25,516 nt of DNA from a virus. Of the stretch, positions 1,965 through 5,399 are shown piece after piece; position 1 is the stretch's first letter, and each line of letters begins with the position of its first letter. The position numbers and the translations under genes were made by a program. The notes under the pieces were generated by a model, which worked only from the letters and a program-made list of their open reading frames with translations, did not search any database and was not told the DNA's origin. The stretch is taken from positions 1 to 25,516 of the IMG/VR virus record IMGVR_UViG_3300027759_000383. One strand, 5' to 3'.

Positions 1965-2358
1965 CTTGACCTCTGTTCAATTTATCTAATAATTCTTTTT
2001 TAATTTTTGCTACAACTTCAGGAGAGGCTTTTTCTTTTTCTTTTTTCTCCCATTCTAAAGACATTTGGCGTCCGCGTTCGCGCTCTCTCGAGTCGGCTAG
2101 TCTACGACGCCACTCCCGATTTATGTGCGATGGAGTAATGGCTGTGTCAAGGTTTGAGTAATGCCAAGAAACAATTTTCTTTGCTTCATCCAAAGGCACA
2201 TCTGTATCCAAAGACTCAGCCCATGCTCTAACCTTTAACTCATCGACCTGAATTCGCAAGTCATAGATTCCAATAAATCCTAAAAGGATTGCTAGGTCAG
2301 ATAGATTCATTGCGGAACTTTTCTGCCAAGTCGATTGCTCTAATTGCTGATTGTTCAT
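1918..2358 (-). CDS. Replication-module protein, possible helicase loader (G39P-like)
   Basis: This protein of up to 146 residues has an N-terminal helical domain with the pattern D-x-R...AWAESL...A...VSWHY...ITPSHIN (about residues 30-82), then a highly charged helical tail rich in Glu, Arg and Lys. This resembles phage helicase-loader/inhibitor proteins of the SPP1 G39P type, which bring the replicative helicase to the initiator-bound origin. Being directly downstream of the initiator fits that role. The 2358 start overlaps the initiator by 62 bases. Met17 at 2310 (14-base overlap) may be the true start, and neither has a decisive ribosome site. The function is moderately supported by pattern and context only. 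Confidence 0.62.
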   Translation of the reverse strand: MNNQQLEQSTWQKSSAMNLSDLAILLGFIGIYDLRIQVDELKVRAWAESLDTDVPLDEAKKIVSWHYSNLDTAITPSHINREWRRRLADSRERERGRQMSLEWEKKEKEKASPEVVAKIKKELLDKLNRGQDAPLENDNGTVAPNA

Positions 2359-3013
2359 GTTTTGTTTTTACTCCTACTCCTCTGAGAACTAAATCCATTT
2401 GACGCATTGAGGGAACTGTCCCTATGTAATCTAAAGCCTGTTCAATCTGCTCGGCTGTGTAGTTTCTTTTCTCTGCCGCTTGGCAGATTGCCAGTAGTGA
2501 GTGCCACGCACTTTTACCCAAAGGTTTAACTCTTTGCTTCTCCCACCATTTTCTAGCAACTGCTTCCGAGAGCGGGATAACTGCGACAGCAGTTTCATCG
2601 CTCTTTGTTGTAGATAGGACGGATGTATAGGACGGATGGTACGGAGTGGCGTTGGGGAGTTGAAGCCCTAGAGTTGGGGAGTTGGGGGTATCTGAGTTGG
2701 GGAGTTCTACATCCCCTAAACTTTGTTCCTCCCCAACAGAGTTGGGTAGTTTCTTCCATAACAACTGATAAACGGTTGCGTTGCCACGGGAGTTTCCCTT
2801 AGTAATAATCTTCAAGTGTCCATCGGCAATCATCTCGTTGATGACCTTTCGAACATATTCAACAGAGCATCGACCCTTGGTTGAGAGATTTGATTGAGAT
2901 GCAAAGAAGCGACCATCATCATGAGAAATATCTGCGAGCGCTAGGTGGATAAGTAGACGGGTTCCGTCGTAGGGCGAATCAGCCCAAACTTTTGTTATCC
3001 ACCTAATGCTCAC
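2297..3013 (-). CDS. Replication initiator protein with winged-helix N-terminus
   Basis: This 238-residue protein has three parts. Residues 1-86 look like a winged-helix DNA-binding domain, including FFASQSNLSTKGRCSVEYV and a basic wing near TKGNSRGNATVYQLL. Residues 88-133 are a low-complexity linker with repeated LPNS/PNSP units. Residues 140-238 form a helical domain (KWWEKQRVKPLGK...), as in phage O or DnaD-like replisome organisers. The order of DNA-binding domain, linker and helicase-recruiting domain matches lambda O-type initiators. The linker DNA holds regularly spaced repeats (annotated separately). It starts in an ATGA overlap with the HTH/zinc gene upstream and is followed by the possible helicase loader. 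No polymerase or helicase gene is in view, so host enzymes may be recruited. Confidence 0.75.
   Translation of the reverse strand: MSIRWITKVWADSPYDGTRLLIHLALADISHDDGRFFASQSNLSTKGRCSVEYVRKVINEMIADGHLKIITKGNSRGNATVYQLLWKKLPNSVGEEQSLGDVELPNSDTPNSPTLGLQLPNATPYHPSYTSVLSTTKSDETAVAVIPLSEAVARKWWEKQRVKPLGKSAWHSLLAICQAAEKRNYTAEQIEQALDYIGTVPSMRQMDLVLRGVGVKTKHEQSAIRAIDLAEKFRNESI
2614..2751 (-). repeat. Iteron-like repeats inside the initiator gene (candidate replication origin)
   Basis: The plus-strand unit GTTGGGGAGTT occurs perfectly at 2651-2661, 2673-2683 and 2696-2706. A one-mismatch copy (GTTGGGTAGTT) is at 2741-2751. Start-to-start spacings are 22, 23 and 45 bases, about two and four helical turns. 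A second pair of direct repeats, ATAGGACGGATG, lies at 2614-2625 and 2627-2638. All fall in the initiator's low-complexity linker. Lambda-type phages carry their origin iterons inside the O gene in the same position. The strand given is that of the gene. Confidence 0.5.
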
Positions 3014-3387
3014 AAATTACCTCCACAATGCGGACAACATTTTTTGCGTCCTTGTCTTTCAATAACCCGACCCTCAATACAACTAACATCGACATAAATC
3101 TTGCAACCATCTCGAGCCTCTTTAAGTCGAGCGATGCGTCCAGTTTTATGAAGAACAGACAATACACCCGAAGCGGTTCCGTGGTGAAGTCCAGTTATCT
3201 CAGAAAGTTCTTTCCAAGTTAAACCCCTCATCTCTCGTTGAGATAAAAGGTTTAGGGCTTGCGCTTGACGCAGAGCAGTCTTACCTGACCTATCTGCATG
3301 AAGCGCTCGCTCTTTAGAAGTGGTCGTTCCACTATGTCCTGAAGTACCGTTATACGGTAACTCGGGCTGGTTCAGTAGTGCTGACAT
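3010..3387 (-). CDS. HTH protein with C-terminal zinc ribbon
   Basis: This 125-residue protein has a flexible Ser/Thr-rich N-terminus, a MarR/winged-helix-like domain at about residues 40-100 (LTWKELSEITGLHHGTASGV followed by LHKTGRI), and a C-terminal half zinc ribbon CCPHCGGN. The HTH with a following wing-like strand suggests sequence-specific DNA binding. It sits between ERF and the initiator, overlapping the first by 38 bases and the second by 4 (ATGA). It could regulate the early operon or bind the origin; the 4605-4620 palindrome is a possible target, but nothing links them directly. Confidence 0.72.
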   Translation of the reverse strand: MSALLNQPELPYNGTSGHSGTTTSKERALHADRSGKTALRQAQALNLLSQREMRGLTWKELSEITGLHHGTASGVLSVLHKTGRIARLKEARDGCKIYVDVSCIEGRVIERQGRKKCCPHCGGNL

Positions 3388-4021
3388 CTTCGATTTCCTC
3401 TTCCAACTTAAGTGGATTTATTTTTAATTGTTGCTCTTTGAACTTGGCACGGAATTGGTCAAGAAGTGCAACTGGGTAAGCGTCCTTGTTCAAGGTTATG
3501 TACTGACCGACTAAAGATAAAGATTCAATATCGGTTGATTGCCCAATCCTTGTAATGACTGCTTCAGGTGGTAAAACATCTTCGCGACTGGAGCGTTCAT
3601 AAGAATGTGCATCAGGGTCTACCTCATCGGTTGGTAGTGATAGCGATTGAAGTAGAGCGGTTCGGAAAGCGACTGACATGGCTTTGGCTGTTGCCTTGTC
3701 GCCCGAGTCCATTGCTTCGCCGACTACTGTTGCTTTAATTGCATCACCGTTTACTCCGATGAATGTGTAAGTTACTTTAACTCTGACATGACCCATAGCG
3801 GTTCGGTTCCGTCCAATCTCAACTGTTTGATAGTCGTACTCTTCAACTGAAGGTACAACAACTACACCGAACTTTTGAAGTGCTGGTGATACCGCATTAA
3901 CAACAGAATCAATTCCTCGGAAATTAAATCCTTGGGCTGTGTTCTTGTCTTTCTTTGCGATTGCTCCAACCGCTTTCATAACTTCACTCAATGCTTGAGC
4001 GATAGGTAATTTGTTTTCCAT
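3350..4021 (-). CDS. erf: ERF-family single-strand annealing recombinase
   Basis: This 223-residue protein is close to the usual ERF length. The ERF core spans about residues 5-140. Signatures include GFNFRGIDSVVNAVSPAL (31-48), GHVRVKVTYTFIG (77-89) and GEAMDSGDKATAKAMSVAFR (101-120), followed by LLQSLSLPTDEVDPDAHS. ERF proteins form rings on single-stranded DNA and anneal complementary strands during phage recombination and genome circularisation. A good AGAGAGGGA ribosome site precedes the ATG. It lies directly after Gam, forming a Red-like recombination pair, though no partner 5'-3' exonuclease is visible. The C-terminal region after residue 150 is variable and acidic. Confidence 0.95.
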   Translation of the reverse strand: MENKLPIAQALSEVMKAVGAIAKKDKNTAQGFNFRGIDSVVNAVSPALQKFGVVVVPSVEEYDYQTVEIGRNRTAMGHVRVKVTYTFIGVNGDAIKATVVGEAMDSGDKATAKAMSVAFRTALLQSLSLPTDEVDPDAHSYERSSREDVLPPEAVITRIGQSTDIESLSLVGQYITLNKDAYPVALLDQFRAKFKEQQLKINPLKLEEEIEDVSTTEPARVTV

Positions 4022-4032
4022 GTTCCCTCTCT

Positions 4033-4575
4033 CTACTCTGCTATTAAGAACGAGACTGAAACTTCAGCGGGTACAACTTTGACTGAAGGAACAATTTCGC
4101 CTTGGGTTGATATTACTTTATCTTCTGACTGATTCAAAGCACCTAGGGCTTTTTTATCAACTTCTTTTTTAACTCGGACTAATTCAGGGGCATTGGTCTC
4201 AGCCCATTCAAGGAACTTGGATTCGTCCTCAATATCGAACTTCACTCGACCCGAGATAGTTTTGATGGTGCCGTGGGGCAGGACTATGCTTTTACGGTCT
4301 TTAGAGCGCTCCTGAAGGGCGTATGGGCGTAGGTTCGCCTCAAACCATTCAGCATCTCTTTCAAGGTCTGTATTGACCTTCTCTAGCCATTCTGCGACCC
4401 TCTGTGCTTCTCGGTCAAAGATGGCTTTGTTATCTGATTGCTTGCGTCGAATGGATGCAAGTTTTCTCATTGCCCAATCTGCTTTTGAATCGTCATCAAC
4501 GACGAATGGCTCACGGGCTGGTTCCTCGATGATTTCAAAATCATCTACTGGTCTTACTGATAATGCGTTGTCCAT
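4033..4575 (-). CDS. gam: Gam-like host nuclease inhibitor
   Basis: This 180-residue protein resembles the Mu Gam family, which binds double-stranded DNA ends and shields them from RecBCD/AddAB-type nucleases. It has a long alpha-helical region (ADWAMRKLASIRRKQSDNKA, then helices rich in Glu/Arg and Trp to about residue 115), then the beta segment HGTIKTISGRVKFDIED and a final helix (FLEWAETNAPELVRVKKEV), as in Gam. The start was set at the ATG at 4575, not the upstream-extended frame at 4716, because GAGAGGAG sits five bases before it and the extra 47 residues would read through the promoter region and into the upstream gene. It is the first gene after the early promoter. Confidence 0.87.
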   Translation of the reverse strand: MDNALSVRPVDDFEIIEEPAREPFVVDDDSKADWAMRKLASIRRKQSDNKAIFDREAQRVAEWLEKVNTDLERDAEWFEANLRPYALQERSKDRKSIVLPHGTIKTISGRVKFDIEDESKFLEWAETNAPELVRVKKEVDKKALGALNQSEDKVISTQGEIVPSVKVVPAEVSVSFLIAE

Positions 4576-4582
4576 GTGGACT

Positions 4583-4601
4583 CCTCTCGTTATAGGAGAG
4601 G
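4583..4601 (-). promoter_or_regulatory. Hairpin covering the gam ribosome binding site
   Basis: On the minus-strand RNA, CCUCUC (4601-4596) pairs with GAGAGG (4588-4583) around the loop CUAUAAC. The 3' arm is part of the gam ribosome site GAGAGGAG. The expected start of transcripts from the adjacent promoter (about 4591-4593) lies inside the loop, so promoter-initiated RNA would lack the 5' arm. Only read-through RNA from the lysis genes could fold it. The structure was judged by eye. Confidence 0.45.
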
Positions 4602-4628
4602 GTACTAAACGGGGGTTTAGATTGTCAA
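4599..4628 (-). promoter_or_regulatory. Early promoter driving gam-erf-replication operon
   Basis: The minus strand has a perfect -35 TTGACA (4628-4623), an 18-base spacer, and a -10 TACCCT (4604-4599) that fits the TAnnnT pattern tolerated by actinobacterial main sigma factors. It lies in the 56-base gap between the lysis cassette and gam, the only sizeable non-coding gap on this side of the tail genes. TATAAC further downstream is 28 bases from the -35 box and so is not the matching -10. Confidence 0.6.
4605..4620. promoter_or_regulatory. Perfect palindromic operator candidate in the promoter spacer
   Basis: CTAAAC and GTTTAG form a perfect 6-bp inverted repeat around GGGG (plus strand), filling 16 of the 18 spacer bases between the -35 and -10 boxes. 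A dimeric repressor bound here would block RNA polymerase directly. The HTH proteins encoded downstream (3010-3387, 519-818) are possible binders, or a repressor outside the window. Confidence 0.5.
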
Positions 4629-4631
4629 GCC

Positions 4632-4913
4632 CTACAACCCGATAACTTGTCCAACATACATGGAGGCACCGACAACCGTACAGATAAAGAGCGCCCCGAC
4701 GGTACGAATAACCCATTCGGAGCGACTCTCCATTTTTTCGAGACGGTCTGTAATGTGTTCCATGGCTTGAGTGACTCTTTCAGAGTCCGAGTCGTAAACA
4801 TCTTTGCGAAGATAAGTTTGGCTGACATTTAGATTCATCTGCTTGACTTCCATAGTTAGGTCATCAAGCCGACGCATAATCTCTCCTAAACTTGGCTTTA
4901 CCTCTTCGCTCAT
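4632..4913 (-). CDS. Coiled-coil, C-terminally anchored membrane protein of the lysis cassette
   Basis: This 93-residue protein has a heptad-like helical region (about residues 5-65: EIMRRLDDLTMEVKQMNLNV and AMEHITDRLEKMESRSEW), then one hydrophobic span at about 68-91 (VIRTVGALFICTVVGASMYV). The layout of coiled coil followed by a C-terminal membrane anchor resembles XhlA/hemolysin-type accessory lysis proteins, which assist holins. It begins three bases after the endolysin stop and is the last gene before the early promoter. It could act as a second holin, an antiholin or an anchor. The family is not identified with certainty. Confidence 0.72.
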   Translation of the reverse strand: MSEEVKPSLGEIMRRLDDLTMEVKQMNLNVSQTYLRKDVYDSDSERVTQAMEHITDRLEKMESRSEWVIRTVGALFICTVVGASMYVGQVIGL

Positions 4914-4916
4914 GTT

Positions 4917-5399
4917 TTATGCCTCGTACTTCGGACGGACGACAGCCATGATTAGTTTGTAATTTCTTTTCTTTAAGAAAGCGCCATCTCCGTTTGATTG
5001 ACTGCCCTTTCCATCACCGCTTGTATTACCTTCGTAAACTTGTAGATACTTTAAGGTTGTGTTGTTCCATTTTACAATACCAACATGGTCTGCCTGAGCA
5101 TCATCGTCGAACTGAAAAAATGCAATATCTCCAGCCTTGGCTTGTCCAACTGGAACTAACTGACCTTTACCTGCAAACCATTTCAGACCAGCATCGCATG
5201 AGGCAAAACCCTTTTTAGATTGAGCCGCGATTAGGTCAGATAGACCTGCTTCCTTGAAGCACCATGAAACATACATGGCGCACCAAGGTTGGTTATTGAG
5301 TCCATACCACTTACCGAACTTAGTGTCGTTATTGGTACCTTCTCGATAACCCGCATCAACCTCCGCTTTCGCGGATGCTAGGACTTTTTGAACTGACAT
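4917..5399 (-). CDS. CHAP-domain endolysin
   Basis: This 160-residue protein consists essentially of one CHAP-type cysteine peptidase/amidase domain, which cuts peptidoglycan cross-links or the amide bond to muramic acid. The catalytic Cys is at residue 40 in QPWCAMYVSWCF, the His at 105 in ADHVGIV, and the third active-site residue is probably in VYEGNTSG (Glu123 or Asn125). There is no signal peptide and no separate cell-wall-binding domain, so release depends on the holin. The start overlaps the holin stop by one base (TAATG). Confidence 0.9.
   Translation of the reverse strand: MSVQKVLASAKAEVDAGYREGTNNDTKFGKWYGLNNQPWCAMYVSWCFKEAGLSDLIAAQSKKGFASCDAGLKWFAGKGQLVPVGQAKAGDIAFFQFDDDAQADHVGIVKWNNTTLKYLQVYEGNTSGDGKGSQSNGDGAFLKKRNYKLIMAVVRPKYEA

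Follow-up and report, generated by a model that had tools for sequence, protein, structure and literature searches.

Where early and late genes of a phage are encoded in the same direction, re-expression of the early genes from late RNA running on beyond its own operon must be prevented. This raises the question of how a gam gene lying directly behind lysis genes on the same strand could be kept silent late in infection. The window analyzed, i.e. the whole stretch of DNA, is a virus record of 25,516 bases in which minus-strand genes span from about 25.5 kb to 0.5 kb. On this strand, the genes for a CHAP endolysin, an XhlA/holin-like protein, Gam, Erf, an HTH protein and a replication-initiation-like protein follow each other in this order. 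The CHAP-domain endolysin, a late gene (4917-5399; Pfam CHAP 1.6e-10, phrog_21357 endolysin 2.9e-73), is followed by the XhlA/holin-like gene (4632-4913; phrog_689 holin 2.3e-5, and XhlA 1.3e-4, which is below the Pfam gathering score). The gam gene (4033-4575) encodes a Mu Gam-like DNA-end protection protein of 180 amino acids (PF07352 8e-22, phrog_2205 3e-42), and its product scored 78.2 bits against PF07352, above the curated cut-off of 28.3. Next in this putative early operon are the gene of an Erf-like single-strand annealing protein (3350-4021; PF04404 8.6e-25), that of a small HTH protein (3387-3010; weak MarR-like match), which is a candidate regulator of the gam promoter, and, farther down, that of the replication-initiation-like protein (2297-3013; phrog_270 3.9e-8). 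The site described below is the junction between the lysis genes and this putative early operon. A gam start farther upstream, for which the reading frame is open to 4716, was ruled out, as the start at 4575 and its Shine-Dalgarno sequence are conserved in relatives.

Read on the minus strand, the junction has the form TTGACA-(18)-TACCCT-CTCCTATAAC-GAGAGGAG-TCCAC-ATG. The hairpin at the start site, pointed out in a preliminary description of this DNA, was confirmed in the sequence. Its left arm CCUCUC (4596-4601) shares three bases with the end of the -10 element, its loop comprises 7 nt (4589-4595), and its right arm GAGAGG (4583-4588) lies within the gam Shine-Dalgarno sequence GAGAGGAG (4588-4581), upstream of the ATG at 4575. 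The stem pairs six of the eight Shine-Dalgarno bases; the preliminary description had rightly expected the ribosome site to be hidden, and its word "partly" understated the extent. RNA from 4630 to 4570, which contains the hairpin and a dyad in the promoter spacer, folded with -16.5 kcal/mol (z -3.2; none of 200 shuffles as low), and the segment from the -10 element to the ATG of a near-identical relative (L156) gave a z of -2.7. For the longer fragment 4640-4540 the overall z of -0.7 was unremarkable, and the stem was present in both the MFE and the centroid structure. A second small hairpin, GUCC-ACAU-GGAC, surrounds the gam AUG (4570-4581) in the near clade only; it is found in both kinds of RNA and may damp gam translation in every RNA. 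With respect to intrinsic terminator or attenuator features, no U run follows either hairpin. An Rfam search of the window yielded nothing at the gathering thresholds, and for 4500-4800 no family matched even with the limit raised to E 1.

The putative gam promoter consists of a -35 element TTGACA (4623-4628), located 3 nt behind the holin stop codon, an 18-nt spacer (4605-4622) and a -10 element TACCCT (4599-4604), which reads TANCCT in most relatives. It was not listed in a consensus promoter scan of the window because TACCCT fits TATAAT at just three of six positions, and that it is a real promoter is argued by its conservation: TTGAC, TANNNT and the 17/18-nt spacing were constant across all 21 aligned representatives. 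From the usual distance of 5-9 nt downstream of the -10 element, the RNA start is predicted at 4594-4590, inside the hairpin loop, which agrees with the preliminary description. A start anywhere in this range would remove the whole left arm from promoter RNA, and therefore the exact base is immaterial. A second -10 element, TATAAC within the loop of the window, was ruled out since relatives read CCTAAC, GGAT or GCTAT there.

The spacer shows a further feature. In all aligned freshwater relatives an AAC-N4-GT motif is fixed 13 nt before the -10 element, and the 17/18 variation of the spacer falls between the -35 element and this motif. The full dyad CTAAAC-CCCC-GTTTAG (4620-4605) is found in the clade of the window. 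The motif is a possible operator for a phage regulator, and its fixed position suggests an additional, separate transcriptional control of gam.

Folding was predicted for RNAs with different ends. For promoter RNA (start 4594-4590) the stem is impossible, and opening of the Shine-Dalgarno core was calculated to cost about 0.9 kcal/mol with the 3′ end at 4540, whereas RNAs starting at 4604, 4620, 4634, 4650, 4700 or 4775 formed the stem with a probability of 0.97-1.0 and had core costs of 3.9-8.8 kcal/mol. When the holin coding region was forced to be single-stranded, mimicking ribosomes, the stem probability was 0.99-1.0 and the core cost 7.2-8.6. Extending the 3′ end to 4500 led to pairing of the Shine-Dalgarno sequence in promoter RNA as well (core cost 3.5, or 3.0 for a start at 4590), and the contrast is therefore smaller. 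The comparison of a 4592-type start with one at 4700, proposed in the preliminary description, gave a contrast for the 3′ end at 4540 which shrank for that at 4500. RNA from 4913 had a stem probability of 0.8-0.9; with the 3′ end at 4540 (stem probability 0.8) the core cost was 1.2 and the contrast nearly gone.

The difference was also predicted for relatives. For 86 distinct ones, mean opening of the ribosome site required 8.6 kcal/mol in read-through RNA versus 2.7 kcal/mol in promoter RNA, with a gap above 2 in 83 of them. The mean gap amounted to 7.2 in 23 thinned representatives versus 1.5 at 184 gene starts taken from these phages as controls, and it exceeded 4 kcal/mol in 19 of the 23 versus 11% of the controls; for the representative nearest to the window, L156, it was just 1.9 kcal/mol. 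The Shine-Dalgarno sequence is hence predicted to be open in promoter RNA and closed in read-through RNA, as the preliminary description had anticipated. Ribosomes terminating at the holin stop codon, or scanning 30S subunits, could weaken the block by the hairpin.

For read-through to occur, RNA from the lysis genes must enter gam. No minus-strand terminator-like site before 4632 was found at the lysis-gam junction in a scan of the window; according to the preliminary description, a strong terminator there would have refuted its reading. The -35 element begins only 3 nt past the holin stop codon and therefore leaves no room for a terminator.

We propose, with a probability of about 0.6, that the gam leader is a translational switch gated by the transcription start site. 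The promoter directly behind the lysis genes would make gam-operon RNA that begins within a hairpin loop, the hairpin being encoded by DNA that spans the -10 element and the gam ribosome site. This RNA would lack the left arm, leaving the ribosome site open, whereas RNA entering from the late lysis genes would carry both arms, so that the stem would cover the Shine-Dalgarno sequence and gam would be translated poorly. Promoter, arms, loop position, conservation and the lack of a terminator are features of the sequence, and the unequal accessibility of the ribosome site is a folding prediction; we infer the start site, the read-through, that gam acts early and that its late shut-off is beneficial. 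By shutting off gam, and perhaps also genes coupled to it, in late infection, the phage would avoid an end-binding protein at a time at which it could interfere with packaging. In sum, the geometry given in the preliminary description is supported and its reading as a whole partly so; none of the three outcomes that it had named as refuting was encountered.

The same anatomy would also be expected if the switch operated as described and its purpose was general insulation from upstream RNA at any time, for instance from a low basal leakage of late genes. With lysis genes upstream, however, late read-through is the main foreseeable source of such RNA. We regard a general insulator as unlikely but worth keeping in mind, and silencing in late infection as a good but provisional inference.

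A switch of this kind should have left its mark in relatives, for which conservation of the stem had been proposed as a check. A search with the Gam protein yielded 80 viral loci, 74 of them with sufficient upstream DNA, and all 74 of these nearest loci carried TTGAC[AT]-N17/18-TANCCTCT-N-GAGAGGA. With the loci added by distant searches, the element was present in 89 of 101 distinct upstream sequences; the other 12 comprise four freshwater variants, six Arthrobacter phage sequences and two remote cellular matches, the latter being the only Gam matches in cellular genomes. The stem is retained down to a Gam identity of about 55%, its arms persisting beside loops of 4 to 8 nt. The whole viral collection was also scanned with the element as a pattern, without guidance from gam; among the loci collected, including overlapping ones and those of the gam search, there were 182 matches, 179 of which precede gam. 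The 16 long relatives carry a single copy of the element each, and no further copies were found. In three relatives of about 60 kb, in which gam likewise lies within a long co-directional gene block, GAGAGG occurs 31-33 times per genome, 11-16 times as a Shine-Dalgarno sequence, and a CCTCTC arm precedes it at gam only. GAGAGG is hence an ordinary Shine-Dalgarno sequence in these phages, and the complementary arm is unique to gam. No relatives of the region at the DNA level were found in the phage collection.

Three more distant loci (L466-L468; Gam identity 37-38%, two of them on contigs of 59-61 kb) lack the element. Upstream of gam, they carry a hairpin that is strong and rich in GC (GAGCGGCCCACCTA...TAGGTGGGCCGCTC) and could be a terminator with the same function.

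Conservation of this extent might also arise if the arms were kept separately, the right one as Shine-Dalgarno sequence and the left one as promoter or discriminator sequence for RNA polymerase or a phage factor, their complementarity being incidental. The left arm indeed overlaps the -10 element, and column-wise analysis showed no covariation: pairing amounted to 92.5%, no pair was changed on both sides, and the covariation score did not exceed that of shuffles. This absence is due to the stem being nearly invariant, and the MAFFT alignment was unable to track the register shifts of two lineages (L301 and L357). Two lineages changed one arm and yet rebuilt the pairing, which counts as such only because the pairing register shifted. 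In L301 the left arm is altered and shifted, TATGCT-TCTTTC still pairs fully, and UGCUUCUUUC/GAGAGGAGCA form a 10-bp stem of -13.0 kcal/mol (0 of 300 shuffles); in L342 the altered right arm GGGAGGA pairs with UCCUC-G-CC over 7 bp, with a bulge (9 of 300 shuffles). Three others (L325, L313, L333) lost the innermost pair alone. Moreover, CC occupies positions 4-5 of the -10 element almost without exception and precedes CTC, whereas position 3 varies, which would be an unusual constraint for a promoter. The range of loop lengths and the different letters at the left arm of Arthrobacter relatives also speak against separately kept arms, which we judge to be decidedly unlikely.

These Arthrobacter phages (L188, L190-L195) carry gam after an endolysin gene or lysis genes, and different hairpins abut its Shine-Dalgarno sequence. 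The hairpins lie in the same place with other letters (z -3.1 for Salgado, -2.8 for Waltz, -1.9 each for Kovu and Ottawa). They were set aside as independent proof because the -10 element may be TAGGGT or TAGGAT, which makes the start relative to the stem uncertain, and they are regarded as suggestive.

If the true start were upstream, the hairpin would be part of every gam RNA and could act as a 5′ stabilizer, exert a constant brake on translation or be recognized by an RNA-binding protein. Stem-loops at the 5′ end that stabilize mRNA are common, and the strong hairpins beside the ribosome site in Arthrobacter phages could persist in promoter RNA. However, the invariant TTGAC-N17/18-TANNNT, kept in 21 of 21 representatives, would fix the start downstream of the left arm, and the poorly conserved sequence and length of the loop are ill-suited to a protein target. 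We therefore give an upstream start little credence. A DNA operator binding a repressor dimer, to which the inverted repeat spanning the start site and the neighboring AAC-N4-GT with its fixed spacing might belong, is highly improbable, since the distance between the half-sites differs by as much as 4 nt (loops of 4 to 8 nt), which is hard for a dimer to accommodate, and the repeat of L301 is displaced by about 3 bp.

If the gam leader is indeed a start-site-gated switch, an early recombination promoter would be placed at the end of a late operon with its start site built into a hairpin loop, and a single piece of DNA would encode two messengers, an early one that is fully active and a late one that silences itself. 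In such co-directional genomes, this task usually falls to a terminator. The hairpin would be a compact alternative that needs no extra DNA because it overlaps promoter and ribosome site. The element is conserved across a large and abundant group of freshwater viruses; that it serves freshwater actinophage-like viruses as a "late-off" RNA switch throughout the group, in effect a time-reversed version of the T4 gene e switch, is a tentative extension to which we give slightly less than even odds.

For gene e (lysozyme) of T4, and also for soc, 49 and I-TevI, the ribosome site is sequestered in a helix of a long RNA initiated upstream; the RNA made by the late promoter of gene e does not contain the 5′ arm and is translated well, while the early long RNA is silenced about 100-fold (PMC3014915). 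The gam leader is predicted to behave alike, with the long RNA closed and the RNA from the nearby promoter, minus its 5′ arm, open. The genes, phages and hosts are unrelated, and the direction is opposite: T4 silences late genes in early RNA by means of late promoters, whereas at gam, with a host-type sigma-70-like promoter, an early gene would stay silent in late RNA. The preliminary description had drawn this parallel correctly. In the hairpins of transposase genes, read-through RNA reportedly folds over the ribosome site, and the own promoter of IS10 starts inside the hairpin structure. IS10/Tn10 and IS200 thus resemble the gam leader in that read-through RNA covers the ribosome site, and IS10 also in its start within the structure. 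For such ribosome-site structures acting against read-through, PMC2965389 refers to Davis et al. 1985 and Beuzon et al. 1999. They protect a transposon against chance external promoters, whereas at gam the RNA to be guarded against would come from the late genes of the phage itself, the gene order being fixed. By its product, the controlled gene is related to the Mu Gam family (PF07352), membership of which is uninformative on the leader; to our knowledge, no comparable gam hairpin has been described for phage Mu. Searches of open-access papers turned up no case in which a start-site-gated hairpin silences an early phage gene in late RNA. The gating logic is known from T4 gene e and IS10-type hairpins, and the variant proposed for gam would be new.
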